Below, piece by piece: positions 15,578 through 32,568 of a DNA stretch of 64,000 nt (position 1 is its first letter; each line of letters starts with the position of its first letter). A program made the position numbers and the translations under genes. Source of the DNA: Chryseobacterium daeguense DSM 19388 (GTDB taxonomy: Bacteria > Bacteroidota > Bacteroidia > Flavobacteriales > Weeksellaceae); the NCBI RefSeq assembly GCF_000430825.1, contig NZ_AUMT01000009.1, positions 1 through 64,000 on the forward strand, read 5' to 3'. Below the pieces are notes generated by a model. The model did no database searches, was not told the DNA's origin, and saw only the letters and a program-made list of their open reading frames with translations.

Positions 15578-17338
15578 ATGGATTCTAATCAACAGACCAA
15601 ATGGTCACAATTCCTATCCTTAATAGTCGTTTTCTTTTTCTGGGGTTTTGTAGCCGCCAGTAATGATATATTAATCCCTGTATTCAAAAAATGGTTCGTC
15701 CTTTCTCAGGTACAGAGCCAGCTTGTAGCATGGGCATTTTATGTCGCCTATTTTGTGGGGTCAGTCATTTTCTTTATTATCTCTTTAAAAAGTGATATCC
15801 TTCAGAAATTCGGTTATAAGAAAACGCTTGCAGTAGGTTTGGGGCTATCCGCTTTCGGAGCATTTTTATTTGTTCCTGCGGCTGCAGCAGCAAATTTCTG
15901 GTTTTTCTTAACGGCATTGTTTATTGTAGGTCTTGGTTTTTCTGTACAGCAGATCGTTGCAAACCCGCTTGCCATTAAAATGGGAAGTCCGCAAACGGGA
16001 GCTCACCGTCTTACTTTAGCCGGCGGAGTAAATTCCCTTGGAACCACCATTGGGCCGATCCTTGTAGGAATTGCCCTTTTCGGGATGGGAGACAAAAATG
16101 AATCCAAAGCACCAGATCCTAACTTATCTAAAATAGAAGTCGTAAAAAATGAATTTATTGCTCATAAAGAAGAGCTTTCCAAAAATATTATTGCCCTGAA
16201 AAAAGACACTCAGGATGATCCGGTAAAAGTAAGAGAGGTAATTTCTACTATTGGAAAAAACATTTCCGACATTGATGCTCAGGTAGCACAGATCGATCAG
16301 AATCTGGCAAACGCTGAGGCCCAGATTGATACTTATTCTAAAAATTTAGGTGAAATAAAACAGCGTTCCAGCAATATCAATTACCCGATAGAATTTGTAA
16401 AAGATAACCTGAAAATGGTTAAAGTCCCATTTATTGTTTTGGGAGTTGCATTTATTCTGGTAGCGATTTTCATGTTGTTCTCAAAAATTGAAGATCCGGC
16501 AAAGGAAGAAGAAGCAGAATTGGAACAAGGCTCTTCAAAGTTCAGTGTTTTCTCTTATCCTCAGCTTTATTTGGGAATGCTTGCCATTTTCCTATATGTA
16601 GGAGTGGAGGTTTCTATCATCAGTAATCTTCCGGCATTGCTTCACACGAAGGAGTTCGGAGGAGTTTTGGAGCATAATATTGCGCCGTTTGTTTCTTTAT
16701 ATTGGGGAAGTTTAATGATCGGAAGATGGAACGGCAGTATCAATGTTTTCAATATTTCTAATGCTACTAACCTTATTCTGAAATTTGTAGTTCCTTTTAT
16801 CGCGTTTGGAATTATCATTGTTGCCAATGAATTAAGCGGCAAGGATGTTTCATCTTTCTATATTTATGCGATATGGATTATTGCATTTATCATTATGAGC
16901 TTTATCGGAGGTAAAAATGCAGGTAAAACGCTAATGATATTCGGAATTGCAGGCGTTGTAATGATGTTCTTAGGTTTGATCTATCCTGACAAGGAAATTG
17001 CAAAATACTTCTTTATTTCAGGGGGCCTTTTCTGCTCTATCATGTGGCCTTCAATTTTCGACCTTGCTATTGCAGGACTGGGAAAAAACACAGGAAAAGC
17101 GTCATCTTTTTTAGTAATGATGATTCTGGGCGGGGGTATCATACCACTAATCCAGGGATGGCTTTGTGATTTTGATAAAACAAGTCCGGAGGGAATTATG
17201 GGTATTACGTGGACGCATTTTTCATACGTGATCCCAATTATCTGTTTTGTGTATCTAGCGTTTTATGGTTTTATCACTCCTAAAATATTGAAGAAACAAG
17301 GTGTACAAGTTGAAGAATCAAATGGTGGCGGGCATTAA
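15578..17338 (+). CDS. Sugar MFS transporter (FucP/GluP type) with a soluble insert
   Basis: Major facilitator transporter of the fucose/glucose-galactose permease group, probably a sugar:proton symporter of the inner membrane. The first six helices carry VFFFWGFVAASNDILIPVF and the FSVQQIVANPLA segment typical of this group. It is 586 residues long, about 100-150 more than usual. The excess is a charged, Gln/Lys-rich segment at roughly residues 170-270 that reads as a coiled coil and sits between the two six-helix halves, in the central cytoplasmic loop. The DUF3810 gene overlaps its end. It may move a sugar linked to the nearby kinase or envelope genes, but the substrate cannot be told. Confidence 0.88.
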   Translation: MDSNQQTKWSQFLSLIVVFFFWGFVAASNDILIPVFKKWFVLSQVQSQLVAWAFYVAYFVGSVIFFIISLKSDILQKFGYKKTLAVGLGLSAFGAFLFVPAAAAANFWFFLTALFIVGLGFSVQQIVANPLAIKMGSPQTGAHRLTLAGGVNSLGTTIGPILVGIALFGMGDKNESKAPDPNLSKIEVVKNEFIAHKEELSKNIIALKKDTQDDPVKVREVISTIGKNISDIDAQVAQIDQNLANAEAQIDTYSKNLGEIKQRSSNINYPIEFVKDNLKMVKVPFIVLGVAFILVAIFMLFSKIEDPAKEEEAELEQGSSKFSVFSYPQLYLGMLAIFLYVGVEVSIISNLPALLHTKEFGGVLEHNIAPFVSLYWGSLMIGRWNGSINVFNISNATNLILKFVVPFIAFGIIIVANELSGKDVSSFYIYAIWIIAFIIMSFIGGKNAGKTLMIFGIAGVVMMFLGLIYPDKEIAKYFFISGGLFCSIMWPSIFDLAIAGLGKNTGKASSFLVMMILGGGIIPLIQGWLCDFDKTSPEGIMGITWTHFSYVIPIICFVYLAFYGFITPKILKKQGVQVEESNGGGH

Positions 17339-18389
17339 TAAAAAAATAACATATAAGAAAAGATTTTGGGCGGGTTTATTACTTGCCCAATTTCTTTTGT
17401 TTTATATATTCTCAAAATCCGGAATGGTTATTTCTTTTTTTGAATCTTTTTTTGAAGTTCAGAAAAAAATCCACCGGATCATATTTTCATGGATTCCCTT
17501 TTCTTTTGGGGACATCCTTTATATTTTGCTGGGTATTCTCCTTTTGGGGCTCATCATTAAATCTTTTAAAAAAACAAGCAGGAAATCTTCTTTGTTAAGA
17601 ATTCTTATTACCGTTAATATCTTTTATTTTATTTACCAGATATTTTGGGGAATGCTGTATTTCCAGGTTCCGATTATTAAAAAATTATCCAGACAGGAAG
17701 AACCAACAATTGCAAAAGCAAAAGTTCTGGCTTTAAAATATCTGGCCAAATGCAAAGAAACACGAAAAAGTGTACAGGAAGATCACCGCGGAGTCTTCAT
17801 AGTAACCGATCTACGAACTATCCAGCAGGAAATACTCGCTCAGCAAGCCAGACTTCCGAAGTACATTTCGGATAAAAAAGCACCTCAAATCAACTCTTTT
17901 AAGCCCAGCGTATTTAAAAACATTATGAGCTACACCGGCATCCTAGGATATTACAATCCTTTTACTGCAGAGGCGCAGTATAATTCGGAATTACCCGGCA
18001 CTTATATTCCTTTTACTACAGCCCACGAAAGCTCACACCAGCTTGGCTTTGCAAGAGAGCAGGAAGCGAATTTTATTGGCTATTTAACAGGTATTAATTC
18101 AAAAAATTATGAGTTACGATACAGCACTGAATATTTTACATTAAAAAGTCTTCTTAATTTCATTGTAGATGAAGATCCTGAGTTCGTAAAATCTGTATTG
18201 AAAAACTATTCTGCAGAAATGAAAAGAGACCGATTTAACGAAAAAAATTTCGTTTTGAGTCATCAGGGCTGGCTGGATGAATTTTTCGGTTTCACAAATA
18301 ACCTGTTTTTAAAAGGAAATCAGCAGGAAGGATCCGTTACATACTCCTATTTTATAGATCTTCTTCTTAATTATGAGGAGATTAAATAA
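17322..18389 (+). CDS. DUF3810 family membrane protein, putative zinc peptidase
   Basis: Membrane-anchored protein of the DUF3810 family. Two to three hydrophobic segments lie in the first ~120 residues, followed by a soluble domain. The sequence TAHESSHQLGF includes an HExxH motif (H235, E236, H239), a typical zinc-metalloprotease signature, followed by an acidic REQEANFIGYL stretch that could supply the third ligand. Catalysis has not been shown for this family as far as I know. I chose the ATG at 17322 (355 residues), which overlaps the transporter by 17 bp; an upstream frame start at 17301 would overlap further. Probably translationally coupled to the transporter. Confidence 0.8.
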   Translation: MVAGINKKITYKKRFWAGLLLAQFLLFYIFSKSGMVISFFESFFEVQKKIHRIIFSWIPFSFGDILYILLGILLLGLIIKSFKKTSRKSSLLRILITVNIFYFIYQIFWGMLYFQVPIIKKLSRQEEPTIAKAKVLALKYLAKCKETRKSVQEDHRGVFIVTDLRTIQQEILAQQARLPKYISDKKAPQINSFKPSVFKNIMSYTGILGYYNPFTAEAQYNSELPGTYIPFTTAHESSHQLGFAREQEANFIGYLTGINSKNYELRYSTEYFTLKSLLNFIVDEDPEFVKSVLKNYSAEMKRDRFNEKNFVLSHQGWLDEFFGFTNNLFLKGNQQEGSVTYSYFIDLLLNYEEIK

Positions 18390-18476
18390 AAAAAGAATCG
18401 TATCAGGCGATACGATTCTAAAAACACAAATGATGAAAAAAAATTTATTACCTTGACTTGTTCCCTCATTCAAGGC
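18387..18476 (-). ncRNA. Candidate small RNA with own promoter and terminator
   Basis: On the minus strand there is TTG (18507-18509), an 18-bp spacer and TACTTTTA (18481-18488), one base off the -7 consensus. The predicted start lies at about 18475, exactly at a hairpin CCTTGA/TCAAGG (18451-18456 and 18470-18475) with a GAGGGAACA-like loop on the transcribed strand. An A/U-rich linker leads to a strong hairpin with T-run at 18394-18419. The product would be about 85-90 nt. No reading frame in it looks real. This is an inference from signals only. Confidence 0.4.
18394..18419 (-). terminator. Intrinsic terminator
   Basis: AGAATCGTATC (18394-18404) and GATACGATTCT (18409-18419) form an 11-bp stem with a 4-nt loop. 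The T-run follows on the minus strand, so it best serves leftward transcription (the candidate small RNA), though the hairpin also lies just after the DUF3810 stop. Confidence 0.7.
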
Positions 18477-18816
18477 GTTGTAAAAGTACAACATATTTTA
18501 GAAATACAAAAACATTTTTCCCTTTTTTTAAAACTTTATGAAAATTTTAAGAATTTTTAAGTTTTTCAAGTTTTAGTCACGATTGAGTGACTTATTTGTA
18601 ATTTCAAATTTAATGAAAATAATAGTATTTTATAATAAATTTTAACTTAAAAGTAATAAAATATCAAACGTTCGTTTAGTAATAAGTTAATTTCAGACAT
18701 GCATTTTAAGAAAAATATTTTTTTTCACGTTTAGAAATATTATTGTTGTATTTTTTTATATGAAATACATAGCTTAATAATTTCAAAGTTTTTATTTATA
18801 TGCGGATAAGACTTTA
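18477..18816. other. AT-rich gap before the RiPP locus
   Basis: Very AT-rich sequence of about 340 bp. Apart from the promoter for the candidate small RNA at its left end I see no gene, no strong hairpin and no repeat. Confidence 0.5.
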
Positions 18817-19653
18817 TCAAGCTTTAATTTTAAAACACTCCGATTTATAATACCTGTACATATAATCATAAATCACCATCTCAAAAACCCGCTGATTTGA
18901 AATAAAAAGCCTGTTGATGTTCATGTGAAATATACTTTCAAAGAATCTCTGAAGAAGTATGTTATCAGATTTTTTAGAAATAATTTTAATAGTTTCATTC
19001 AGGCTGTCTGTTTCAGAAATAATTGTGTCCCTGAAATATTTATATTCATCATGATCCAGAAAATCAGAATATTTTATTTTAAACGCCCTGTATTTTTTAT
19101 CCAATTGAGCATTAAGCGTTTTATCAGCATTGAATTCCTGTTTGAAAGCGCGGTTTGAATCTTCTATCCATTTTAATTTTTCTTCAATGGAAAGCCCTAA
19201 TTTTCCCAGGATTTGATCAATATAAAATACCGAAACGATGAGTTTTTCTTCATCATCAAAATCCAGATATTCCTTTACTATAAGTTCACTGTTTTTATAA
19301 AATAAATATTCAGCTTCGTTAATGGTTTGCTCACCATACCTTTCAATTTCACGATTGTAGGTGTCTATCAAAAAATTAGAAATCTCACCGGAGTCCATAT
19401 ACTTTTCAAGGGCAGTATTTATTTTTAAAATAATTGTATCATAATTTCCGGTTTCTGCAAGCTCAAATCTTAATCTAAGATGAGGTTTAGGATCATTATA
19501 CCGGATAAAAAACCACTTTTTTATAAGCCTTTTTTCTGTTAAAAATTCAACTAAAGGCATGATACTGTCACTTAAAACAAGGTCTGCAGTTTTCACTCCG
19601 GTATATATTTTAAGATAGAGCCATTCACTTCCCGGGATAAATTTTCTTTTCAT
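18817..19653 (-). CDS. Thiopeptide-type bacteriocin biosynthesis protein (LanB elimination domain)
   Basis: Stand-alone version of the C-terminal domain of class I lanthipeptide dehydratases (SpaB_C / thiopeptide-type bacteriocin biosynthesis family). In this system the partner glutamylates Ser/Thr of the precursor using Glu-tRNA and this domain eliminates glutamate to leave Dha/Dhb. The 278 residues begin with GSEWLYLKIYTG and include KKWFFIRYNDPKPHLRLRF, the family's hallmark W-F-IRY-DP--HLR-R region. It is two bases downstream of the LanB-like gene and clearly forms an operon with it. The two-gene split resembles thiopeptide and some Bacteroidetes lanthipeptide systems such as pinensin. 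Confidence 0.92.
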   Translation of the reverse strand: MKRKFIPGSEWLYLKIYTGVKTADLVLSDSIMPLVEFLTEKRLIKKWFFIRYNDPKPHLRLRFELAETGNYDTIILKINTALEKYMDSGEISNFLIDTYNREIERYGEQTINEAEYLFYKNSELIVKEYLDFDDEEKLIVSVFYIDQILGKLGLSIEEKLKWIEDSNRAFKQEFNADKTLNAQLDKKYRAFKIKYSDFLDHDEYKYFRDTIISETDSLNETIKIISKKSDNILLQRFFESIFHMNINRLFISNQRVFEMVIYDYMYRYYKSECFKIKA

Positions 19654-19655
19654 TA

Positions 19656-21839
19656 TCAGTTCACTTTAAAAATTGGGAAAATGAATTCTCGCTTAAAATC
19701 ATCATTTTCATTGTACAGATATTCTTCAATTATAATTGATTTTTCATTCTTAACTACATCCACAAACATCATTACAAGATCATAGTTTTCAAGATTAATG
19801 GTAATCTTATTATCAGATTTTACCCACTGAATCCATGCGGGAATTTTTCTTTTGTTTCTCCAGTTTTTAATCTCCTTTAAAAAGTTTGCCTTGTCTTTAG
19901 TGATGAGCTCCAGTGCAGATACATCCATTTCTGAAATTTTCCATTGAGCTTTTGAAAGTATAATGTTCCTATACTCCACTCTCGGCAGGAAATGATACAC
20001 CTGTTCTAAGCCTCCCCAATTGAAATATAATCCCGTTCTTCTGTTTTGAGAATGGAAATCTGCTAAGAAATGATAGACCGGAAGGCTATTTGAAAAATAA
20101 TTATGGGCATTCGTTAAGTAGGGCCGAACTTCTTTATTTAGCTTTTTTGATCTTAAAATAATACTGCCATTTTTCAAAGAAATATAAAGATCATCAATTG
20201 GAATTTGATTTTCTTCTGCTAAAACCGATTGACCTAAATATGGAATTTCATATTTTCTCAGGGTCGACCTGCGAATTACGTTTCCAATCCTGGCCTCAGG
20301 AAGGTGGATGATTTCAGCTAAAATAAAGTCGGGATTTAATTCTTCTTCCTTTTCAGCAATTATTTTGGTTAAATTTTTCAGCTTTGATTTTTCAGAGCAA
20401 AACCGGCCGAGAAGATTTGCTGCCGTGCTTCCTCCGCCTCCATTCAAAAATAATTTTTCTTGTTTATTCTCAGAAACAATCTCCCCCATAAAAGAAATTG
20501 TCTCAGGTATATCTTTCCAGTTTTCTTCAAAACCTTTAAAATCTTCATCCGATAATTCAATCATAATTTGATTTTCCCACAAAGCTTGTTGCAGTTTTTC
20601 ATTCAGGACTTTGTGTACGGGGCTCAGCTCAATTTTCTGGTATTCATTTTTAGCAGAAAATGGAAATTTCAGATCTTCAAGGTATGGATGGATTCCCTTT
20701 GACTGAACATCTTGCCTGTAACCAATCCCAACTTCTACATCGAGGACGTAAGTTAATGGCATTTCCTGAGTTTCAAACCTTTCATTAAAAGCTTTTTTAA
20801 ATTGCTCGAAATGATTATCTTTTTGCAGGAGGCATAATTTGCTTAAAAAACTAATTCCCTTTTTGAGCTCTTTTTTCCAATTTGGCGATAAAGTGTGATC
20901 TACATTATTATAGAGATCGGTCTGGAAAAGGTAGTTCTTTTCATAATCAGCATTGAGGGATTGTATGAGTTGTTCAATTTCCAGATACTGTTTAATAGAA
21001 TTTCCTATTGTTCCATCAACTGTATCCAATTTTGATTTTATTAAAAGTAAAGTTTCAACTTCCTTTTCTGCATTTATCCTATTCAAAGCAGAAATAAGTG
21101 TATCCAGAAAATCATTTCCCGAAACCACCGGTTCTATTTCACTCACCAAAATCTGATTGTCTATAAGCTCTGCCATATATTCTTCTGCATCATTTATGGT
21201 TATTTCTTTACTGATAACAATACTTGCAAGCTCGGAAATTGTTTTTCCTGACTTTGAAAATTTCAGGCATTTCTCCAGCTCGTTGGAATAAACAGCGGAT
21301 GAGATAATGTAATCTCTTTTTCCATTGTTATTTTCAAATTCTACATACCGGATTTTGTCTCCAATTTTATAAATACTGTTATTCGGGAAAAATAATAATT
21401 GTTCTTTTATATGAGGAATTCTCTCAAAACTTCTCGCTAAATTTACTAAAAAGTGCATATCCAGCTTGGTATCTCTTATTATTTTTGCAGCACCAGCCGA
21501 AGATTGAGTATGGTTAAATCTGCCAAGACCAACCTGCGAGAATAAGCCGAATGGTGTACATCGCGTACTCATCCGGCTATAATATTTTAAAATGGTATTT
21601 TTTAGTTTTTGAATTTGTTTAGATTGCAGTTCTTTCCCTGAAAACCATTGCTGAACTTCCTGGTACACATACGGCGAAGCCAGGTAGATTGCTTCCTGAA
21701 AAACAGGATCTTTACAGACTTCTTTCAAATCATCATCAGATAGCTTTTCTTTCTCAAACTTTTTTTGAAAGTCCTTATTTGAAAAAAAAGGTGTCCGGAC
21801 TACGTATTCCTCAAAAAATTGATATGGGAACTGGGGCAT
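19656..21839 (-). CDS. Lantibiotic dehydratase, glutamylation protein (LanB N-terminal type)
   Basis: Large subunit of a split class I LanB dehydratase, expected to glutamylate Ser/Thr residues of a precursor peptide using glutamyl-tRNA. The N-terminus FEEYVVRTPFFS and the motif STRCTPFGLF (about residues 91-100) are diagnostic, and RRTGLYFNWGGLEQVYHFLPRVEY near the C-terminal part is also typical of the family. I place the start at the ATG at 21839 (727 residues). A TTG ten codons upstream lies inside a TATTATTG promoter-like box (21867-21874) with TTG 22 bp before it, so is less likely. The small elimination gene follows; no LanC cyclase is adjacent. Confidence 0.93.
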   Translation of the reverse strand: MPQFPYQFFEEYVVRTPFFSNKDFQKKFEKEKLSDDDLKEVCKDPVFQEAIYLASPYVYQEVQQWFSGKELQSKQIQKLKNTILKYYSRMSTRCTPFGLFSQVGLGRFNHTQSSAGAAKIIRDTKLDMHFLVNLARSFERIPHIKEQLLFFPNNSIYKIGDKIRYVEFENNNGKRDYIISSAVYSNELEKCLKFSKSGKTISELASIVISKEITINDAEEYMAELIDNQILVSEIEPVVSGNDFLDTLISALNRINAEKEVETLLLIKSKLDTVDGTIGNSIKQYLEIEQLIQSLNADYEKNYLFQTDLYNNVDHTLSPNWKKELKKGISFLSKLCLLQKDNHFEQFKKAFNERFETQEMPLTYVLDVEVGIGYRQDVQSKGIHPYLEDLKFPFSAKNEYQKIELSPVHKVLNEKLQQALWENQIMIELSDEDFKGFEENWKDIPETISFMGEIVSENKQEKLFLNGGGGSTAANLLGRFCSEKSKLKNLTKIIAEKEEELNPDFILAEIIHLPEARIGNVIRRSTLRKYEIPYLGQSVLAEENQIPIDDLYISLKNGSIILRSKKLNKEVRPYLTNAHNYFSNSLPVYHFLADFHSQNRRTGLYFNWGGLEQVYHFLPRVEYRNIILSKAQWKISEMDVSALELITKDKANFLKEIKNWRNKRKIPAWIQWVKSDNKITINLENYDLVMMFVDVVKNEKSIIIEEYLYNENDDFKREFIFPIFKVN

Positions 21840-22032
21840 TTTTATTTTTTTGTGTTTTTTCTGATACAATAATACAAATTTTTATCAATTTGTCTACAAT
21901 TCACCATTACGGAAACTCCCTGCCGTAATATTTCTCTAACTGCTCATAATTTTGGTTTTTAAGGGTCTGGGATATAAAACCCTTTTATACTTTGCGAAAA
22001 CTATCGATTACAATAAAAAGGAAATAAAAAAA

Positions 22033-22051
22033 GCATCTAATTTTTAGATGC
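22033..22051 (-). terminator. Terminator of the XRE regulator gene
   Basis: GCATCTAA (22033-22040) and TTAGATGC (22044-22051) form an 8-bp stem with a 3-nt loop followed on the minus strand by a run of seven T. It separates the regulator from the LanB operon, which then needs its own promoter. Confidence 0.75.
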
Positions 22052-22076
22052 CTGTATTTTTTTAAATACTGTAAAC

Positions 22077-22447
22077 TCATTTCAATTGAGATTTCAAATC
22101 TTCATTTTCTTTTTTCAATGATCCGTTTTGTTCTTTTAAAAGATTAATGTAATCCTGCAGATTATCTATGATTGAATTGGGTACACTATAATAATGATTA
22201 TAATTCCCTGCATTATCATTAAATGTTGAATTTTCATTATGTATTATCCCTAATCCATTTTCTTCTTTAATTTCTTCTACAGAAACATCTAATGCTTTTG
22301 CAAGTTTTTCCCATTCATCATCATGAATTCTAGATTTTCCATTTTCCTTGCGGGAATAGCTGGAAGTATCTGTAGATAATATTTTTGCCATTTTTCCTGA
22401 GACATGCCCCTTTGTTTTCTAAGATTTCTTAATTTCTCTTGTATCAT
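22077..22447 (-). pseudogene. XRE-family HTH regulator, frameshifted
   Basis: The two overlapping frames combine into one helix-turn-helix protein of about 124 residues. The N-terminal piece MIQEKLRNLRKQRGMSQEK is helix 1-2 of an XRE domain, and the C-terminal piece MAKILSTDTSSYSRKENGK continues with the recognition helix, then EWEKLAKALDVSVEEI and a C-terminal coiled coil (LLKEQNGSLKKENEDL). One base is missing from an A-run (A5 on the coding strand; T5 at 22391-22395); six would restore the frame. The second part alone starts with an ATG but lacks the first helices. It may be a pseudogene, a sequencing error or slippage control. It sits at the divergent centre of the RiPP locus. Confidence 0.75.
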
Positions 22448-22461
22448 TTTGCTGTGTTTTT

Positions 22462-22508
22462 TGCAAATGTATGCAAATTTCATGCAAAATTAAGCCGAAA
22501 ATTGCAAA
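22462..22508 (-). promoter_or_regulatory. TGCAAA repeats overlapping a -7 box
   Basis: TGCAAA occurs at 22462, 22472, 22483 and 22503, that is at steps of 10, 11 and 20 bp, on one DNA face. The first repeat overlaps TACATTTG (minus strand, 22464-22471), a consensus -7 box just upstream of the regulator's start at 22447. The arrangement suggests an operator through which the XRE protein controls its own promoter. No good -33 TTG is seen at the standard distance. Confidence 0.45.
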
Positions 22509-22522
22509 AAAATCGCAACCTT

Positions 22523-22558
22523 TTGTCTATTTCGAAATGTAGTTTTTTTATAGTTTTG
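22523..22558 (+). promoter_or_regulatory. Possible promoter of the precursor operon
   Basis: TTG (22523-22525) and TAGTTTTG (22551-22558) match the Bacteroidetes elements but are 25 bp apart, longer than usual. The resulting leader to the precursor ATG would be about 125 nt. Confidence 0.3.
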
Positions 22559-22690
22559 AAAATCAATATTGATAAAGCGCTTTTAATTATTCAATTTACA
22601 CTTGCGCAGGTATAAATTAAAAATAATTAGAAAAAGCCCATGTCAGGGATTATATGACAATAAATTATTATTAAATTTAAAAAACAAAAA

Positions 22691-22948
22691 ATGAAAAATT
22701 TAAAAAAACTTTCAAGAAATGAGTTGAAAAGAATTTCAGGAGGAAGAAAGGCATGTTCTGTTGTTGTTAAACAACCTGATGGATCATTTAAAACTTACCC
22801 TGGTACATGTTCCACAACTAAACCACCAAACTCAGCAGTCTTGTCGGATTTAGTAAATTGGGCATTGACTTCACCAGGATATTGTGAAACTGGTTTAGGA
22901 AATTTGACACTAACATCAAACGGAGGCGTTTCCCATTGCAATGACTAA
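22691..22948 (+). CDS. Double-glycine leader precursor peptide (bacteriocin-like)
   Basis: An 85-residue peptide with leader MKNLKKLSRNELKRISGG, a double-glycine type leader of the kind cut by C39 peptidase exporters; such leaders are common in Chryseobacterium 'bacteriocin-like' proteins. The 67-residue core holds four Cys at 22, 40, 65 and 83, spaced 18-25-18, and about 16 Ser/Thr, so it could be a substrate for LanB dehydration, disulfide formation or both. A hairpin with T-run follows immediately. The operon then continues with a thioredoxin-like lipoprotein, a VKOR-thioredoxin fusion and the exporter. Activity is unknown. Confidence 0.85.
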   Translation: MKNLKKLSRNELKRISGGRKACSVVVKQPDGSFKTYPGTCSTTKPPNSAVLSDLVNWALTSPGYCETGLGNLTLTSNGGVSHCND

Positions 22949-22954
22949 AAATAG

Positions 22955-22976
22955 AGGCTGGTAACACAGCCTTTTT
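22955..22976 (+). terminator. Intrinsic hairpin after the first precursor
   Basis: AGGCTG (22955-22960) and CAGCCT (22967-22972) with a 6-nt loop, followed by four T. It lies seven bases after the precursor stop and 14 before the next gene. It probably works as a partial terminator, raising precursor output relative to downstream genes. Confidence 0.65.
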
Positions 22977-22989
22977 AATAAAATTTATT

Positions 22990-24078
22990 ATGAAAATTTA
23001 TATATCAATTTTTCTTTTAATTATAACAACCTTTTCTTGTTCTAAAGAAAACGCTAATAAAACATTAATAACAGGTAATATTCCTAATTTACCAGATGGA
23101 ACGATGTACCTTTTTAAAGAAACAATGTTGGAAAAAATAGATAGTACAAAAGTAGTTAGTGGAAAATTTGAATTTAAATATTTCAATAAAACTAATTTGC
23201 CTGTATATCTTGGTATATTTCATATTGATAAAAAGAATGTTAAACGAGTTTTTGGGTTTCCTACAAAGTCTAAATATAAAGGTTCCCCATTAGTACAATC
23301 TGTTTTTATGTCAGACCCTTTTATAAAAATAAATGGCGAATTTTTTGACAACACACCAAATGGTTTTCCAGAACATATAAGGTCTGTCGATTTGAAAACA
23401 CCTATTAAGTCTGGTATACAAACTGAAGCTTTTTACAATATCGATGGGGACCTATTTGAAAAAATAAATGCTCAAACGATACAAGTTATAAAAGAAAAAA
23501 TTTACACTTTCCCTTCATCATATTATTTATTAGAAAAAATAAGTGAAAATAAAAACAGTTTTCCTCCAGAACAAGTGGATCTATATTTAAAATTATTCAA
23601 AGGAGATATTACCAAAAATGATCTATTTAAAAATTTGTATGCCTACAACAAAAAAAGGTATGCCGAAAAAAATACTTCTCTCCCTATGTTGGAAAATTTA
23701 AAAGGAGTTAAATCTCCAGTTTTGGATTCAAAATACAAAAAGCATCTTGTCGTATTTTGGGCAAGTTGGTGCGGACCATGTAGACAGGAAATTCCTCTTT
23801 TGAAAAGAATATATAGTACAAAAGATGAATCAATAGAATTTATTTCAATTTCAATTGATGAAGATAAAAATGCATGGAAAAAAGCATTAAATCAAGAGCA
23901 AATGAATTGGAAACAGATGTTTATAAGTGATAAAGATCCAAATTATGAAAAAATACAGATATATTTCAAGTTAAACGGTGCAATCCCTTATACCGTACTT
24001 CTTGATGATAATTCTAAGATTTTAAAGACAACTGTTGGATTGTCTTCTGAAAAAGATTTAATTAATTTCATTAAGTAA
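22990..24078 (+). CDS. TlpA-like thiol-disulfide lipoprotein with DUF4369-type N-terminus
   Basis: Predicted periplasm-facing lipoprotein. The signal peptide ends in the lipobox-like TTFSC. An N-terminal beta-rich domain (residues ~28-125, NIPNLPDGTMYLFKE... IDSTKVVSGKFEF) is of the DUF4369 type seen in Bacteroidetes TlpA proteins. The C-terminal thioredoxin domain has the active site WCGPC (Cys261, Cys264) in VFWASWCGPCRQEIPLLK. Expected to reduce or isomerise disulfides outside the cytoplasm. Placed between precursor and VKOR fusion, it is likely to act on the Cys-containing peptide. The coding sequence is noticeably more A-rich than the genes after 24156, suggesting separate origin. Confidence 0.88.
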   Translation: MKIYISIFLLIITTFSCSKENANKTLITGNIPNLPDGTMYLFKETMLEKIDSTKVVSGKFEFKYFNKTNLPVYLGIFHIDKKNVKRVFGFPTKSKYKGSPLVQSVFMSDPFIKINGEFFDNTPNGFPEHIRSVDLKTPIKSGIQTEAFYNIDGDLFEKINAQTIQVIKEKIYTFPSSYYLLEKISENKNSFPPEQVDLYLKLFKGDITKNDLFKNLYAYNKKRYAEKNTSLPMLENLKGVKSPVLDSKYKKHLVVFWASWCGPCRQEIPLLKRIYSTKDESIEFISISIDEDKNAWKKALNQEQMNWKQMFISDKDPNYEKIQIYFKLNGAIPYTVLLDDNSKILKTTVGLSSEKDLINFIK

Positions 24079-24155
24079 AACACAATAAATCCCACAAAAT
24101 TGAAAAACCATTTGTTTTTTTCAAACATCTGCGTATTTTAGTTAAAAATATTAAT

Positions 24156-25661
24156 ATGCTATTGGACAAACTCATCAATTATCTGAAACTCGACAAACAG
24201 GAGTTCCTGTTTCAGTTCAATTCACATCCCAATTACCCTTCCGCACTGGCCTTTAGCGATACTTTAAATTTTATGGGCATTCGAAATGATGCCTATGAAT
24301 TAGACAAGGAATATTGGGATGAGCTGCCGGAAGAATTTATAGCCATTGTAGATAATACCTTTTCACTGGTTAAGAAAACCGGAGCTTCCTATTCAATATA
24401 TTCAGATAAAACAAAAACGCTCAATAAAGAAGAACTTTACAAAAATTCTACAGACTTTGTCTTACTTTTTGAGAAAGAAAATGTAGAAACAAAAACAGTT
24501 ACCAGCTACAAGCCATTTATTTATGCAATTTTTGCACTTACAGCAATCTATTCGTTTTGGAATCATGTCTGGTATGAAGCTGTTTTTAATGTGCTTTCTT
24601 TGGCCGGAGTTTATATTTCCCTGGAAATTTTCAAACAGAAGTTCGGAAATACTTCAGCAGTTATAGGAAGTATCTGTGGCGATACTACAGCCCAACAAAG
24701 TGTAAATTCATGTAATAAAATCATTGATCAGGATAAAACAAGCATATTAGGTTTAAAATTTTCAGACTTTTCATTGATATATTTCATCGGGATTACTGTA
24801 CTCGGCATTTTCCTGCCCTCAACCTCATTTATCATAAAAGGTTTTGCGCTGGCTTCTATTATTGCCATTGGATATTCAGTGTATATACAGGGGTTTGTAG
24901 AAAAAACATTTTGCAGGGTTTGTCTTTTAATTATTTCAATTCTTGTGGCTCAACTTTTGATTTCCTCATTTTTATTCGAGCAGATTTTTTTTGATCTAAA
25001 GATTATTTTATTGAGCCTGATTTTATGGATAGCCTCTTTCTCATTGGTTTTATATTTAAATAACACTCTTAATGAAAAAGAAAACCTGCAAAAATCAAAT
25101 GCAAAAAATTTAAGGTTCAAAAGAAATTATAACCTCTTCAAAAGAGAATTTTTAGAAAATGAAAAAATTATTTTTTCCGACAATGAAACATTTGCGTTGG
25201 GAAATAGGGATGCAGGATTAAAAATTTCGGTTGTTTCAAATCCATATTGCGGTTTTTGCAAAGGTGCTCACAAAATCATGGAGACTTTACTGCAAAAATA
25301 TCCGAATGACATTTCTGTACAGATGAGATTCAATTATTTCCCAGAAAAGCAGGATGAAAAATTTACCCGCCTTATTTCAGATTTCATGCATATTTACAGA
25401 AATAAACCGGAAGCAGATTTTCTTGAAACTGTTGATTATTGGTTCGAAACTAAAGATGAAAACAAAATAATACAAAAAGCAGGAACGGCTTCCGCCACTG
25501 AAGATCTTACTTCACTCATCAAAATGTCTGAAGAAAATAAAGAAGCCGGACTAAACTTTACACCAATTATTTTAATCAATGGGCATCAGTTTCCTGAAAA
25601 ATATGATAGAGAAGACATTTATTACTTTATTGATGAATTAATAGAAGATGATGAGGTTTAA
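24156..25661 (+). CDS. VKOR-thioredoxin fusion with a C39-like N-terminal domain
   Basis: A 501-residue disulfide-generating membrane protein. The first ~115 residues (LLDKLINYLKLDKQEFLFQFNSHPNYPSALAFSDTLNF in two parts) resemble a C39-like domain lacking catalytic Cys. The middle is a vitamin K epoxide reductase domain with four to five helices, the loop cysteines C174 and C186 and the quinone-site pair CRVC (C253, C256). The C-terminal part is a DsbA-like thioredoxin with CGFC (C365, C368). Together this is a complete quinone-to-substrate oxidation relay. In Bacteroidetes such fusions accompany peptide exporters. Likely oxidises the exported Cys-rich peptides (inference). Confidence 0.9.
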   Translation: MLLDKLINYLKLDKQEFLFQFNSHPNYPSALAFSDTLNFMGIRNDAYELDKEYWDELPEEFIAIVDNTFSLVKKTGASYSIYSDKTKTLNKEELYKNSTDFVLLFEKENVETKTVTSYKPFIYAIFALTAIYSFWNHVWYEAVFNVLSLAGVYISLEIFKQKFGNTSAVIGSICGDTTAQQSVNSCNKIIDQDKTSILGLKFSDFSLIYFIGITVLGIFLPSTSFIIKGFALASIIAIGYSVYIQGFVEKTFCRVCLLIISILVAQLLISSFLFEQIFFDLKIILLSLILWIASFSLVLYLNNTLNEKENLQKSNAKNLRFKRNYNLFKREFLENEKIIFSDNETFALGNRDAGLKISVVSNPYCGFCKGAHKIMETLLQKYPNDISVQMRFNYFPEKQDEKFTRLISDFMHIYRNKPEADFLETVDYWFETKDENKIIQKAGTASATEDLTSLIKMSEENKEAGLNFTPIILINGHQFPEKYDREDIYYFIDELIEDDEV

Positions 25662-25774
25662 TAAAGAATTAGTATTCAACAAAATTGCTTATTTTTAAAG
25701 CTTAAAAAAGCTTAATCTAAAAAAAATCTGTCGTTGAAAAGGCGGCAATTATTTTAATACAAATTGATAAAAAA

Positions 25775-27967
25775 TTGAAATCCTTCCCTTTCTACCGCCA
25801 ACCCGATTCAAAAGACTGCGGTCCTACCTGCCTCCGTATTGTAAGCAGATATTATGGAAAAACTATCTCGCTGCAACAGATTCGTAACCTCTCAGAAACC
25901 ACACGGGAAGGAAGCAGCTTATTGGGATTAAGCGATGCTGCAGAAGATTTGGGATATCGATCGCTTGGTGTTCAGATCAATTTTGAAACGCTTGCGGAAG
26001 AAGTTCCGCTGCCCTGCATTGTTCACTGGAACAAAAATCATTTTGTAGTTGTTTATAAAATTGACAAAAATAATAAAGCCTATATTTCGGACCCTAGCTA
26101 TGGATTAATTACTTATAACAGGGACGAATTTATAAAGCTTTGGATCGGCGAAAATGCCAATGAAAAAACAGAAGAAGGAATTGTTTTAATCCTGGAAACA
26201 ACACCCGCTTTTTTCCAGACAGAATTTGATGATCAGGAAAGTAAGGCCAGCTTCAGCTTTTTATCTAAATATTTATTGAAGTACAAATCGCTCGTTATCC
26301 AGCTTGCGATCGGGCTTTTGGCCGGAAGTTTACTGTCGCTTATTTTTCCTTTTCTTACCCAGAGTATCGTGGATGTGGGGATTCAGAATCAAGATCTTAA
26401 TTTTATTTATCTTGTTCTTTTAGCCCAAATCATGCTTTTTCTCGGCCGGATGGGTATTGAAGTTATCCGAAGCTGGATCCTGCTGCATCTTTCCGCGAGA
26501 ATTAATATCTCCATTATTTCCGATTTCTTTATTAAGCTAATGAAATTACCGATCAGCTTTTTCGATACGAGAATGACCGGCGATATCATGCAGAGAATCA
26601 ACGATCATCACAGAATTGAGCAGCTTTTAACGAGCTCTTCGCTGAACACCCTGTTTTCATTAGTCAACCTGATCATTTTCAGTATTGTCCTTTTATTTTA
26701 TGATTACAGGCTGTTTATCGTATATCTTGTCGGGGCAATTGCCTATATCGGATGGATCAGTTTTTTCCTCAGCAAAAGAAAAGAGCTTGATTATAAAAGA
26801 TTTTCCCAGGTTTCGCAGGAACAGAGCAAGGTCATTGAGCTCATCAACGGGATGCAGGAAATTAAAATGCATAACGCCGAAAAGCAAAAACGCTGGGATT
26901 GGGAGTTTTTACAGGTTAAATTGTTTAAAATTAGAATAAAATCACTTTCACTCGAACAATGGCAGTCGGTCGGTGGTAATTTTATCAACCAAATGAAGGA
27001 TATCCTGGTAAGTTTTCTTTCAGCGAAACTTGTTTTGAGTGGAAATTTAACCTTAGGGATGATGCTTTCTGTGCAATATATCATCGGCCAGCTGAATAGT
27101 CCGCTATTGCAGCTCATTGATTTCATTAAACAAACCCAGGATGCTAAAATTTCCCTGGAAAGATTGGGTGAAATTCACGATAAAGACGATGAAGAAAGTA
27201 AAGACGAACAATATGCACATGATCTGCCTCAGAAAGATATTGAAATAGAAAACCTTTCATTCCGTTATATTGGTTCAGACCAGTTTGTTTTTGAAAATTT
27301 AAGTTTAAATATTCCCTATCAGAAAACTACCGCCATTGTAGGAGCCAGTGGGAGCGGAAAAACAACCCTTTTAAAGCTGTTGATGAAATTTTATGAGCCC
27401 ACTCAGGGAGACATTAAGTTAGGAAATACCAAACTGAAAAATATCTCCCCCAGATTCTGGAGAGATCATTGCGGGGTTGTGATGCAGGAAGGTTATGTTT
27501 TTAATGATACCATTGCCAACAATATTGCTGTAGGAGAAGATTATGTCGACAAGCAAAAGCTGAGAAAAGCTGTAGAAATTGCCAATATTAAAGATTTTAT
27601 CGAAGAGCTGCCCCTCAGCTACAATACCAAAATAGGGAATGAAGGATTGGGGGTCAGCGGCGGTCAGAAGCAAAGGTTATTCATTGCAAGGGCAGTTTAC
27701 AAATCTCCGGAATATATTTTCTTTGATGAAGCTACTTCAGCACTCGATGCCAATAATGAAAAAGTGATCATGGAAAATCTTGAGCAGTTTTTCAAAGGCA
27801 AAACAGCCATTGTGATTGCGCACAGGCTTTCTACAGTAAAGCATGCAGATAAAATCATTGTTTTGGATAAAGGAAAGGTAGTGGAAGAAGGAAATCATGC
27901 AGAACTGGTTGCAGCCAGAGGCGAATATTACAGATTGGTAAAAAATCAATTAGAACTTGGAAATTAA
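25775..27967 (+). CDS. Peptidase domain-containing ABC transporter (PCAT)
   Basis: Inner-membrane exporter that cuts the leader after a double glycine and exports the core peptide. The 730-residue protein starts with a C39 cysteine peptidase domain whose catalytic residues are visible: Cys15 in SKDCGPTCLR, His89 in NKNHFVVVY and Asp106 in ISDPSYG. A six-helix ABC membrane domain follows (~165-440), then the ATPase with Walker A GASGSGKTT (~525), signature LGVSGGQKQR and Walker B YIFFDEATSALD. Translation starts at a TTG; the MKSFPFYRQPDSKDCG start is family-like. It works with the HlyD protein encoded at 28280 and is the likely exporter of both precursors. Confidence 0.96.
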   Translation: MKSFPFYRQPDSKDCGPTCLRIVSRYYGKTISLQQIRNLSETTREGSSLLGLSDAAEDLGYRSLGVQINFETLAEEVPLPCIVHWNKNHFVVVYKIDKNNKAYISDPSYGLITYNRDEFIKLWIGENANEKTEEGIVLILETTPAFFQTEFDDQESKASFSFLSKYLLKYKSLVIQLAIGLLAGSLLSLIFPFLTQSIVDVGIQNQDLNFIYLVLLAQIMLFLGRMGIEVIRSWILLHLSARINISIISDFFIKLMKLPISFFDTRMTGDIMQRINDHHRIEQLLTSSSLNTLFSLVNLIIFSIVLLFYDYRLFIVYLVGAIAYIGWISFFLSKRKELDYKRFSQVSQEQSKVIELINGMQEIKMHNAEKQKRWDWEFLQVKLFKIRIKSLSLEQWQSVGGNFINQMKDILVSFLSAKLVLSGNLTLGMMLSVQYIIGQLNSPLLQLIDFIKQTQDAKISLERLGEIHDKDDEESKDEQYAHDLPQKDIEIENLSFRYIGSDQFVFENLSLNIPYQKTTAIVGASGSGKTTLLKLLMKFYEPTQGDIKLGNTKLKNISPRFWRDHCGVVMQEGYVFNDTIANNIAVGEDYVDKQKLRKAVEIANIKDFIEELPLSYNTKIGNEGLGVSGGQKQRLFIARAVYKSPEYIFFDEATSALDANNEKVIMENLEQFFKGKTAIVIAHRLSTVKHADKIIVLDKGKVVEEGNHAELVAARGEYYRLVKNQLELGN

Positions 27968-28015
27968 TTAAATATTTTTATTAAATTTAAATAACCAACT
28001 CAAAATCTTATAGTT

Positions 28016-28219
28016 ATGAAAAATTTAAGAAAAATTGAAAGAAAAAATTTAAGCGAAATCCACGGTTCAGGGCCGATTCCTGTATTTCCATGCAATTGCT
28101 TTTGCTACATCAACAATGTAAAGCAGTGGAATGCATGTAACCGCTATTGCCCGGATGGAGACATTCCGGGGGTAGAACCAGGCAATAATCCGAAATGTGA
28201 TTATACATTGCCGTTATAA
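28016..28219 (+). CDS. Second small precursor peptide, Cys-rich
   Basis: A 67-residue peptide with leader MKNLRKIERKNLSEIHGSG, closely like the first precursor's leader but ending G-S-G instead of G-G. The core of about 48 residues has six Cys (26, 28, 30, 41, 45, 61) and, after the leader, only one Thr and no Ser. It therefore fits a disulfide-bonded peptide rather than a LanB substrate. It lies between exporter and HlyD adaptor genes and is followed by a strong hairpin. Function (bacteriocin, signal or immunity decoy) cannot be told from sequence. Confidence 0.8.
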   Translation: MKNLRKIERKNLSEIHGSGPIPVFPCNCFCYINNVKQWNACNRYCPDGDIPGVEPGNNPKCDYTLPL

Positions 28220-28236
28220 GATTATTTTAAAAGCAC

Positions 28237-28271
28237 ACTCAATAATCTTCGGGTGAAGGTTATTGAGTTTT
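28237..28271 (+). terminator. Strong hairpin after the second precursor
   Basis: ACTCAATAATCTTC (28237-28250) and GAAGGTTATTGAGT (28255-28268) form a 14-bp stem with one wobble pair and a GGGT loop, followed by T-rich sequence. It ends 9 bases before the HlyD ATG. Probably attenuates transcription into hlyD and stabilises the precursor mRNA. Confidence 0.75.
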
Positions 28272-28279
28272 AAATTCAT

Positions 28280-29578
28280 ATGGAAAAAGACATTTTAGAC
28301 AATATTGAGCTTCGCTCGGAAAGCGTTCAGGATATCCTTACTCAACCGCCTCACTGGATGATCCTCTGGGGAAATACTATCATTCTCATCATCCTCATTC
28401 TCATTTTAATAATGAGCTATATCATCAAATATCCGGAATTTGTTCCGGCTCCTATTGTGGTAACTTCACAAAACCCGCCTGAAAAACTCGAAGCCAGAAC
28501 CAATTCTAAAATTGAAAAAATATTCATTAAAAATCATCAGCAGGTTAATAAAAATGAAGTATTGATGGTGATGCAGTCCACTGCTAATTATAAAGATGTT
28601 TTAGCGCTAAAAAAAATCATTGATTCTCTTACCCCCAATCAGCTTTCGGCTTTCCCTCTTCAGGAAACCTCCCATTTTAAATTGGGTGAACTACAAAGTG
28701 ATTACAACAGTTTTGCAAAAGCATTTCAGGATGAAGCGTTATTTACAAGGCTTCAGCCTTACGCGCCTGAAAATTTAGCTGCGAATCAGAGCCTTTCTGA
28801 ATACCGTGTAAGAATTGCAACTTTAAAGCAGCAGAAAAACCTTGAGCAGGCAAAATATGAGCTTACCAGAAAAAACTATCAGCGTTCTCAGGAATTGTTT
28901 AACCAGGGTGTTATCGCCCAGGTAGAACTGGAAAATGAAAAGATTAAATTTATTCAGGCTCAGCAGAATTTAGAAAATATTACGATTTCCCTTTCTCAAA
29001 TAGAAGAAGAGATATCCAATTTAAATAAAACAAAAAGCGGAACCGCCATTAATACGGAAAAAGATAAGATCACCTACTCTTCCCAGACACTGCAGTTGTT
29101 TGAACAGCTAAGAAAATCGCTTAAACAATGGGAACAAAATTACCTGATCATTTCCAATACTGAAGGACTGGCCAGTTTTCAGCAGTTTTTTGGCGAAAAT
29201 CAGTTTGTAAAAGCCGGAGATGTAATTATCTCTATTCTTCCCAAAAACAGGGAAAATTTAGTAGGCAGAATGGCTGTACCAGCCGTTAATTCCGGAAAGG
29301 TAACATCTGGAGAAAAAGTTTTAATTAAATTAGATAATTATCGTTATCAGGAATACGGCATTGTTGAAGGAAAGGTGCAAAATATTTCGCTTTCTCCGGA
29401 TAAAGATGGAAATTATTATGTGGATGTAATTCTTCCAAAAGGACTAAAAACTAGTTACAATAAAAACCTTCCTTTTGATAAGGAATTAAAAGGCAATGCT
29501 GAAATTGTTACCCAAGATTTAAGGCTGATTGAAAGATTCTTCTATCAGATGAGAAAATTGCTGGGTTATCAGAGTTAG
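28280..29578 (+). CDS. HlyD family periplasmic adaptor
   Basis: Membrane fusion protein linking the exporter to an outer-membrane channel. The 432 residues contain a short cytoplasmic start, one membrane helix (~residues 29-50, ILWGNTIILIILILILIM), the first lipoyl half (VTSQNPPEKLEARTNSKIEK), a long coiled-coil hairpin (~170-260, QKNLEQAKYELTRKN), and the second lipoyl/beta-barrel part (NTEGLASFQQFFGENQFVKAGD). This is the typical partner of PCAT exporters in Bacteroidetes, and the gene is last in the export operon. Confidence 0.93.
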   Translation: MEKDILDNIELRSESVQDILTQPPHWMILWGNTIILIILILILIMSYIIKYPEFVPAPIVVTSQNPPEKLEARTNSKIEKIFIKNHQQVNKNEVLMVMQSTANYKDVLALKKIIDSLTPNQLSAFPLQETSHFKLGELQSDYNSFAKAFQDEALFTRLQPYAPENLAANQSLSEYRVRIATLKQQKNLEQAKYELTRKNYQRSQELFNQGVIAQVELENEKIKFIQAQQNLENITISLSQIEEEISNLNKTKSGTAINTEKDKITYSSQTLQLFEQLRKSLKQWEQNYLIISNTEGLASFQQFFGENQFVKAGDVIISILPKNRENLVGRMAVPAVNSGKVTSGEKVLIKLDNYRYQEYGIVEGKVQNISLSPDKDGNYYVDVILPKGLKTSYNKNLPFDKELKGNAEIVTQDLRLIERFFYQMRKLLGYQS

Positions 29579-30286: not shown

Positions 30287-31027
30287 ATGAAAGTTTTTAA
30301 TAAAGATATTGTATTTGCATTAATTTTAATTCTTCTATTAAATTCAGTTTTTCAGAACCTAATAAGTACTTTCATTTCTTCCACAAATGAAGCTTTAGCT
30401 TTTAAAGTAGCTTTAAAGCTTATGCTTTCTATAGTAATAATACTTTTAATAAAACATAATAATCAGGAACCTGTAAAGGTAAATTTTAAAGGTATTCTAC
30501 TTTCATCAATTGTAATTGTTTTTAGTTTTTTTTCTATACAGAATGAAAAAATAGAAATCATTACAAATTTTTTATTCCTACTTTCATGCATTTCAGTAGC
30601 AGTATTTGAAGAACTACTTTTTCGGAAGTTTCTATTTGAAAAAATAAATAATTCTAATACCAAAAATTACGAATTTCAGGTAATTCTAATAACTTCTGTT
30701 TTTTTTGCTGCTGTACATATTCTTAATCTGTTAAAAGTTAATTATGACCTTTATTCTACTATCAATCAGATATTTTTTGCTTTTGGAATAGGCGTGATAT
30801 TACAGTACATCTATTATCGAACAAAGCAACTCATAGCGTGTATAACAATTCACGGAATTATCAATTATTTCGGTACTTATAAATCATATTTATACGATAC
30901 AACTACTGATGGTATTTCTTATAGCTTTTCGGATTTTATAGTTACACTTATTTTTATAAGCATTGTTAATTGTGTCATAGTAGGAGTCATTTACCTTTTG
31001 TATCAACAAAGCAGGAAACTTATTTAA
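30287..31027 (+). CDS. CPBP family intramembrane glutamic endopeptidase
   Basis: Polytopic membrane protease of the CPBP (Abi/CAAX-like) family. The catalytic motifs are present: EELLFR (E108, E109, R113), a His in AAVHILN (H144), and ITIHGIINYF with H189 and N193. About seven hydrophobic segments fill the 246 residues. In Gram-positive bacteriocin loci such proteins act as self-immunity factors or process peptides, so a role in immunity or maturation here is possible, but the gene is separated from the export operon by a decayed gene and a long hairpin. Confidence 0.88.
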   Translation: MKVFNKDIVFALILILLLNSVFQNLISTFISSTNEALAFKVALKLMLSIVIILLIKHNNQEPVKVNFKGILLSSIVIVFSFFSIQNEKIEIITNFLFLLSCISVAVFEELLFRKFLFEKINNSNTKNYEFQVILITSVFFAAVHILNLLKVNYDLYSTINQIFFAFGIGVILQYIYYRTKQLIACITIHGIINYFGTYKSYLYDTTTDGISYSFSDFIVTLIFISIVNCVIVGVIYLLYQQSRKLI

Positions 31028-31281: not shown

Positions 31282-32568
31282 TTATTTTAACTTAAAATAT
31301 TCTAAAACATCGCCTACATGGTCTGGTTTATTGATTATCTTATTGTTAGCATCCAAAATAAAATACGTAGGAGTTGCATGAACATTGTACGTATCTACAT
31401 AGCTGCTGTTCCATCCTCTCAATTCCGAATCATTTACCCAAGGAAATGCCGTTATTTTTTTAGAATAAGAATCTTTATCAACATCCAAAGACAATCCCAC
31501 TACCTGAATATTTTTCGCTTTTAAATCATTATACTTGGCCAATAATTGAGGAAGTTCGCTTTCACAATGTGAACAGGTAGAAGACCAGAATACAATCACC
31601 TTTTTATCAGCTTTAACATCATACAATGATTTAGCAGTAGTATTTACAGGTGACTGAAATTTCGTATTAGGAAAAGTTGCTCCCATTTCTACGTTTGCGT
31701 TAGACTTTAATGTAGAAGCAAGCCTATCCGTAATGGTGCACTTCAGATTTTTGGCCAGGTTTAGGTACTTATCCTTATATTCAGCCATGTCATAGACGTC
31801 AAAAATATCAATCAGCTCAGATAAAACCGTCTGTCCTCTCGGAGTTTCAACTTTCAATCTATCTAAAAGCTTATCTACAGAAGCAGTGACATTTGTATTT
31901 CCGCCGGTATTAAGATAGTTGACAAGTATAGGTCTCAATAATGTAGAGGTCTCAAGCATATCATTTGACTTATCTATAAAGTTGATAATATCATCCTGAC
32001 TTGCTTTTTTTGAGGCATCATTAGAAAGAAATTTACTATAGTTTGTATTATAATAATAAATGAAAGGATGCTTTGTCTGATCTATACCATCAGCGCTGCC
32101 GGAAAGTCTGTTTATTTCCGTTTTAAGAGCTTTTCCGAAGTCTGTATCATCTTTATAATATTCTTTAATCTGAGATAATGCAGGTAAGATCAATTCCTTT
32201 TTTTGAGATCCTTCCTGTATTTTACTCATAATATCATTGGATTCATCCAAATAAACAACATTTTTAATTTTGTTCGTCTGGGTTTCAAGCTTCACATTTA
32301 CATTTTTATTCTCGGAAATAAAATTAAATGCGTTATTTGAGTTTGGAAAATATACTTTCATCATACCCATATAATTTTTTGGGTATTTAAAAGTCCAGGT
32401 ATTATTTTTATTCTGCTCCTTGGAGAAAATAATATCTTTAGAACCGTTTAAAGTATATAGGATAGCGTCTTGTTCTTTGAAGTCAGAAGGAGCCTGAATT
32501 GTAACAGTAAACTGTGCCTGTAAAGAAAATACAGCTAGTAAAGCTGAAATTGTATAAATCTTTTTCAT
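31282..32568 (-). CDS. TlpA family thioredoxin-like protein
   Basis: Predicted exported protein of 428 residues with a signal peptide (KKIYTISALLAVFSLQAQ) and no lipobox. The N-terminal ~120 residues look like a beta-rich DUF4369-like domain; a helical middle follows; the C-terminal thioredoxin domain has VFWSSTCSHCESELPQL with the active-site motif CSHC. Likely a periplasmic or outer-membrane-associated thiol oxidoreductase. It is downstream of the small 'PID' membrane protein and the T9SS-sorted protein, all leftward, with a terminator in between at 32585-32608. Confidence 0.9.
   Translation of the reverse strand: MKKIYTISALLAVFSLQAQFTVTIQAPSDFKEQDAILYTLNGSKDIIFSKEQNKNNTWTFKYPKNYMGMMKVYFPNSNNAFNFISENKNVNVKLETQTNKIKNVVYLDESNDIMSKIQEGSQKKELILPALSQIKEYYKDDTDFGKALKTEINRLSGSADGIDQTKHPFIYYYNTNYSKFLSNDASKKASQDDIINFIDKSNDMLETSTLLRPILVNYLNTGGNTNVTASVDKLLDRLKVETPRGQTVLSELIDIFDVYDMAEYKDKYLNLAKNLKCTITDRLASTLKSNANVEMGATFPNTKFQSPVNTTAKSLYDVKADKKVIVFWSSTCSHCESELPQLLAKYNDLKAKNIQVVGLSLDVDKDSYSKKITAFPWVNDSELRGWNSSYVDTYNVHATPTYFILDANNKIINKPDHVGDVLEYFKLK

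Follow-up and report, generated by a model that had tools for sequence, protein, structure and literature searches.

The double-glycine export operon and the divergent split LanB genes of Chryseobacterium daeguense DSM 19388 are probably (at roughly three chances in four) two unconnected systems that share a chromosomal site, with the LanB pair being the relict of a cassette that lacks LanC. They lie in a stretch of 64,000 nucleotides, here called the window (contig NZ_AUMT01000009.1, positions 1 to 64,000). A first-pass annotation had read the LanB, disulfide and export genes as a single hybrid locus. That reading is not supported: related LanBs have cysteine-poor precursors of their own with a different leader, homologues of the window's peptide cores occur with the same operon in two genomes that have no LanB match, and the window's LanB pair lacks a precursor, a hydrolase and a regulator. 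The LanB-hydrolase cassette found across the genus without LanC is a novel lead in its own right, and the window most likely holds a relict copy of it.

Gene content of the locus

Searches with Pfam and NCBIfam profiles recovered every gene that had been named at this locus, each in its place and with the identity claimed for it, including the glutamylation and elimination halves of a split LanB (Table 1). The locus sits inside a 194-kb contig of an assembly of 25 contigs. On the minus strand, 2 bp separate the two LanB genes, whereas the operon at 22691-29578 runs on the plus strand. The glutamylation half (LanB-N) likely starts at the ATG at 21839, which would give 727 aa, because relatives such as the one at locus L064 start there; among the matches of the elimination half (LanB-C), TIGR03891 is a family with a thiopeptide name. 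The VKOR-thioredoxin fusion carries CRVC and CGFC motifs. Precursor 2 lies at the NF047798 cut-off of 23.5 bits, scoring just below it in one search (22.4 bits) and just above it in another (23.6 bits), and the HlyD-type adaptor stays under the type_I_hlyD cut-off (100.6 bits against 208.65).

Table 1. Features of the locus, in positions of the window.
Feature	Position	Strand	Description and profile matches
DUF3810 gene	17301-18389		
Split LanB, glutamate-elimination half	18817-19653	-	278 aa; Lant_dehydr_C 212 bits, TIGR03891 202 bits
Split LanB, glutamylation half	19656-21869	-	737 aa as listed; Lant_dehydr_N 460 bits
Junction stretch between LanB-type and LanB-less-type DNA	21859-22076		blastn
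Small HTH regulator	22077-22391 (to ~22440)	-	two frames against homologues
GG-leader precursor 1	22691-22948	+	85 aa, 4 Cys in core; NF047798 33.9 bits (cut-off 23.5)
TlpA-like protein	22990-24078	+	DUF4369, WCGPC motif; lipoprotein as judged by eye
VKOR-thioredoxin fusion	24156-25661	+	VKOR 34.1 bits, Thioredoxin_4 46.4 bits, both above cut-off
C39 peptidase-containing ABC exporter	25775-27967	+	Peptidase_C39 117 bits, ABC_membrane 108 bits, ABC_tran 104 bits
GG-leader precursor 2	28016-28219	+	67 aa, 6 Cys in core
HlyD-type adaptor of the exporter	28280-29578	+	HlyD_3 42.6 bits, above cut-off
Gene for a 428-aa protein	31282-32568		

Two further features deserve mention. Directly after the export operon, at 30287-31027 on the plus strand, lies a gene for an Rce1/CPBP-like membrane protein; such proteins can serve as bacteriocin immunity factors. 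To the eye, the N-terminal part of the VKOR protein (24156-24500) follows the order of elements of a C39 domain that lacks the catalytic residues. We do not claim an inactive C39-like domain there, as hhalign returned a probability of 0.2 of 100 (E 0.32) and residues 1-115, folded as a single sequence, reached a mean pLDDT of 48.

An intact LanB pair in a genome without LanC

Both domains of the window LanB align with NisB (PDB 4wd9, 6m7y) and with the dehydratase-like chain 9g04. With NisB numbering transferred onto the window proteins from our alignments, the residues given in PMC4341554 are retained: the equivalents of Y80, R83, R87 and T89 in LanB-N and of R784, R786, R826 and H961 in LanB-C. 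According to the same paper, the NisB mutants R784A and T89A had mild effects. Unlike NisB, the window LanB is made as two polypeptides instead of one and has no cyclase partner. Both reading frames are open. Only 4 of 151 near-invariant columns are altered in LanB-N (5 of 79 proteins have more alterations) and 0 of 66 in LanB-C, where 37 of 72 proteins have more. The open frames and retained catalytic residues count against a long-dead relict; the residues imply either that the partner genes were lost recently or that the pair works in trans. In a search for a LanB promoter, promoter-like sites were no more frequent than in shuffled sequence (6 against 7.6).

The absence of a cyclase, observed at the locus in the first-pass annotation, extends to the whole genome, in which no LanC scored above cut-off (best LANC_like match, E=0.27) and none appeared at E<=0.001 in a second genome-wide search. 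Of the components of a class I lanthipeptide cluster, the LanB with its glutamylation and elimination domains is present and a LanC cyclase is lacking. A dedicated precursor with Cys and Ser/Thr for thioether rings is lacking as well: the genome yielded no precursor of the family used by related LanBs, and the cores of that family have 0 or 1 Cys.

The LanB clade and its usual cassette

Among 173 genomes of the same genus, Lant_dehydr_N is found in 131 and LanC in 84. We fetched the surroundings of 80 LanB places (up to 20 kb) and mapped their neighbours. In a tree built by a quick method, with long branches flagged outside the clade, 79 LanB-N proteins including the window's form one side of a branch with a support of 100, outside of which fall three other split LanBs (one beside LanC) and 13 full-length LanBs. 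The closest kin of the window's LanB-N are those of genomes G109 and G172 (support 99). Clade membership, defined as more than 50% identity to the window's LanB-N, was checked for the fetched loci, and by the same level of identity the clade extends to three other genera of the family.

The 78 other clade loci have a consistent make-up, with LanB-C in 77, a TPR-AraC regulator in 74 and a precursor in 72. Our script found a hydrolase at 70 of them (S9 at 47, S15 at 20, both at 3), and missed six at which an open S9 frame runs into the called start of LanB-N, giving 76 of 78; L116 has a short piece only and L074 none. Hydrolase, precursor and regulator occur together at 63 of the 78 by the script, with the hydrolases undercounted by those six. 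One hydrolase of each type was scanned, giving a Peptidase_S9 with an N-terminal propeller and a Peptidase_S15/CocE-NonD protein, and the N-termini of the cassette hydrolases resemble signal peptides as judged by eye. LanC, sought by blastp with two LanC queries, lies within 10 kb of 2 of the 78 loci, each time adjoining a second, full-length LanB, and 31 of the 77 genomes on the clade list, among them the window's own, lack any LanC match. No exporter was seen next to the usual cassette in the mapped neighbourhoods.

The precursors have a leader of the form K-K-L-S-L-K-K-L-Q...I-x-G-G, in which KKLSLKKLQ is largely invariant among 20 aligned sequences. For the cores, statistics were taken from the 56 of 72 precursors that match a core pattern: all 56 contain Thr, while Cys is absent from 35 and present once in 21 (21 and 18, respectively, in a smaller set of 39). 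With no or one Cys per core, several lanthionines or thioether rings are impossible. Cores beside S9 hydrolases average 2.7 Pro (n=34) as compared with 1.25 beside S15 hydrolases (n=16; p=0.005, uncorrected for ancestry), a hint of an enzyme-substrate link.

From these sequences, an intact cassette would make a Cys-poor, Thr-containing peptide that the split LanB would dehydrate from Glu-tRNA without LanC, unless Glu-tRNA chemistry is put to some other use, together with an S9 or S15 hydrolase that has a signal-peptide-like start. Export would probably rely on a C39 exporter acting in trans; the one encoded in the disulfide operon is a plausible candidate, given the GG at the end of the cassette's leaders and the lack of an exporter beside it.

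Other peptide systems occur around the same LanB genes. At L104 and L105 a second split LanB (37% identical) lies 8 kb from the clade cassette and adjoins a C39 exporter and proteins of 296 and 380 aa, with no LanC found nearby. Full-length LanBs with LanC and a C39 exporter nearby form ordinary-looking class I clusters at L083, L124, L125, L128 and L129. ATP-grasp-like proteins and small precursors, which may be graspetide-like, adjoin intact LanB cassettes at L064 (3145-4414) and L068 (155-1930), in the latter with three near-identical tandem copies; presumably this is a RiPP hot spot.

Losses and remnants in the window copy

The window has the clade's LanB-N and LanB-C and lacks the hydrolase, the precursor and the TPR-AraC regulator of the usual cassette. 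Profile A1, which was trained on 20 precursors from the same loci and finds matches in 96 of the 173 genus genomes, gave a best E of 1.05 in the window's own genome. A degenerate KLSLKK pattern matched that genome 12 times, as compared with 7 for a reversed-pattern control, and none of the 10 matches that were read encodes a GG-leader frame. It is conceivable that the LanB pair acts in trans, its substrate being a highly diverged precursor or one encoded elsewhere in the genome and exported by the adjoining C39 exporter, as its retained catalytic residues and nearly unaltered invariant columns would suggest; however, both searches argue against this, as does the presence of Cys in all complete GG peptides found in the genome, and we consider it unlikely. 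With the precursor, hydrolase and regulator lost, we infer that the LanB pair is a relict, most likely without a cognate substrate. A point against the relict reading is that the precursor may lie in an assembly gap, given the 25 contigs.

The boundary of the LanB-type DNA can be placed by blastn. Genome G109 matches window positions 18000-21858 at 72%, and G067 and G042, two genomes without a LanB match, match 22077-22747 and 22093-22730, respectively. The G109 match ends at 21858 and the G067 match begins at 22077, so the junction lies between them. Terminator-like hairpins occur on both strands at 22031-22053, and a search of 21840-22720 for hydrolase or regulator remnants gave nothing above noise. 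A frame-broken piece of a cassette-type S9 hydrolase does exist on another contig of the same genome (C18; L249 845-1092), with identities of 82% and 68% to the S9 enzyme of G172. It corresponds to the C-terminal part and lies about 0.85 kb from the contig end, beside a frame that we take to be transposase-like. It cannot be assigned to the window's cassette in particular.

That fragment, its position near a contig end and the number of contigs are what could suggest that the cassette genes are missing through an assembly error. We find this barely credible, since the locus lies well within its contig and continues into DNA homologous to that of LanB-less genomes, and the C18 fragment is itself frame-broken. 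At the same site in genome G152, a shortened LanB-N adjoins LanB-C, perhaps as a later stage of decay.

On the operon side of the junction, the small HTH gene is probably broken in the window, as its alignment to homologues falls in two frames; in relatives (L197 and L198, for example) this gene points away from the GG operon. Separately, a stretch some 55-70 bp long just ahead of the first GG gene (22631-22698) matches G109 and G172 at 85-88%, in contrast to the DNA flanking it, and may be a promoter or leader element that they have in common.

The export operon and the parity of its cysteines

At E<=1e-10, VKOR-thioredoxin has matches in 162 of the 173 genus genomes, although in a few (e.g. 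G029) the match is a distant one. All 20 regions examined around the best VKOR matches have the order VKOR, C39 exporter, HlyD, and all 20 contain GG-leader frames; a TlpA homologue lies directly upstream in 8. The window has the leader_Chryseo leader, the C39 exporter and HlyD, and its GG peptides are without the KKLSLKKLQ element. Homologues of the precursor 1 core were found at L210, L203 and L206, and of the precursor 2 core at L195, L196, L205, L207, L208 and L209 (73-98%).

The cores of these peptides mostly have an even number of cysteines. Among 55 core representatives with a leader_Chryseo leader, collected with one leader pattern and clustered by shared 4-mers rather than by phylogeny, the count is even (2, 4 or 6) in 52 (binomial p=8e-13) and odd (5 or 7) in 3; LanB-linked cores, by comparison, have 0 or 1. 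The window's genome encodes 10 leaders of this type, one of them under the cut-off; nine cores have 4, 5, 4, 6, 2, 6, 6, 6 and 6 Cys, and the tenth peptide is cut short. The odd counts, in 3 of 55 representatives and in one of the nine complete peptides of the genome, speak against disulfides; from the overall parity and the neighbouring genes, the operon peptides probably contain them. Genome G039 (L200, 4308-10382) has nine different Cys-rich GG-leader peptides around one VKOR/C39 operon.

We therefore propose, from gene content, that the operon would make and export double-glycine, probably disulfide-bonded peptides. The C39 domain would cleave the leader at the GG during export, HlyD would connect the exporter to the outer membrane, and the VKOR-thioredoxin fusion and the TlpA-like protein would form and sort disulfides in the two cores, which have 4 and 6 Cys. 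The earlier suggestion of a dehydrated, oxidized or doubly modified peptide that is exported is retained as regards double-glycine export and probable oxidation, and given up as regards LanB acting on the window's peptides.

Why the two systems adjoin

Of 81 split-LanB places, counting the window's own, at least 29 have a VKOR place no more than 25 kb away; the 81 are the best-scoring split matches with two LanC-linked ones (G082 C3, G022 C44) left out, and they were compared with the listed VKOR places only, making this count a lower bound. DUF3810 flanks the LanB pair in the window and is found in 15 of the 20 export-operon regions, with a homologue of the 428-aa gene in 14; 4 of the 5 regions without DUF3810 come from genomes whose fetched LanB locus carries it. 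Within the fetched stretches of the 78 cassette loci, DUF3810 occurs in 22. Together, the nearness to VKOR and the DUF3810 genes at the cassette loci indicate a shared site, which explains an adjacency beyond chance and does not thereby show one pathway. Gene-neighbourhood comparison within the genus, which had been proposed as a check, separates two systems. The refuting condition set in the first-pass annotation, that LanB homologues are never linked to these precursors in other genomes, had a mixed outcome: LanB often lies near the operon, yet with a precursor of its own.

Could the two nevertheless form one pathway? In that case LanB would dehydrate Ser/Thr of both GG peptides, which would then be oxidized and exported, with rings formed without LanC. 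Apart from the tight adjacency, the intact LanB and a proximity to VKOR far closer than chance, this view can draw on an association of LanB and VKOR across the genus: VKOR is present in 128 and absent from 3 genomes with LanB, and present in 34 and absent from 8 without it (Fisher p=6e-4, uncorrected for ancestry), where no LanB means no PF04738 match and includes G152 despite its LanB fragment. However, LanB-less genomes carry this export operon together with peptides homologous to those of the window (precursor 1 in G146, 35% over 72 aa; precursor 2 in G149, 73% over 49 aa). The window peptides lack the leader element that is largely invariant in LanB-linked precursors, the clade nearly always has a precursor of its own, and the even numbers of cysteines suggest pairing among themselves. 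We thus regard a single pathway as highly improbable, and prefer two neighbours at one site.

Of the arguments left for a functional tie, the association is the strongest, and it fits export in trans as well. Because the usual cassette has no exporter inside it, a tie through the exporter is possible.

Relation to known systems

Bacteroidetes class I LanAs have leaders of the form LxLxKx5L ending in GG, and their clusters often include C39 proteases, according to PMC7268733. The LanB clade resembles the clusters described there in its split LanB and in the leaders of the intact relatives, which fit LxLxKx5L...GG. It differs in that neither the window locus nor its genome has LanC, in the 0 or 1 Cys of the LanB-linked cores of relatives, in the S9/S15 hydrolase beside LanB in relatives, and in the window copy being without its own precursor. 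An S9 peptidase near a dehydrating RiPP enzyme, as in the intact relatives, recalls the class III LanPB-type prolyl oligopeptidases treated in PMC7268733, but here the dehydratase is a class I split LanB, S9 alternates with an S15/CocE-type hydrolase, and the window has neither.

The export operon is close to systems with an NF047798 leader (leader_Chryseo, 'bacteriocin-like protein') and a C39 ABC exporter. Both window peptides have the leader, C39 exporter and HlyD are adjacent, and we see no essential difference; the window adds an oxidation module of VKOR-thioredoxin and TlpA, and 'bacteriocin-like' is an annotation name only. In the open-access PMC literature we found no paper on a LanC-less cassette of LanB with S9 or S15, nor on the disulfide export operon.

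Implications

LanB homologues are commonly taken as lanthipeptide markers. The clade described here occupies 79 fetched places in one genus, usually without LanC, with cores that are unable to form several thioethers. The intact relatives may represent a RiPP family that our literature searches did not reveal, a proposal to which we give somewhat less than even odds: LanC-free split LanB, Cys-poor and Thr-bearing cores behind a GG leader, maturation outside the cytoplasm by a secreted hydrolase, and C39/VKOR export in trans. The hydrolase would be a prolyl oligopeptidase or a CocE/X-Pro-type enzyme that performs either trimming or head-to-tail cyclization at a Pro/Thr motif, and the window would show the C39/VKOR exporter adjoining a cassette that recently lost its substrate. 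The first-pass proposal of a peptide class made without LanC, possibly ringed without an enzyme, may thus hold for intact cassettes elsewhere; it does not apply to the peptides of the window.

The window itself serves as a warning that genes lying side by side at a RiPP hot spot do not thereby form one pathway. If the relatives do make dehydrated, hydrolase-processed peptides, class I dehydratases would in their case work independently of LanC, a use that genome mining based on LanC would miss.
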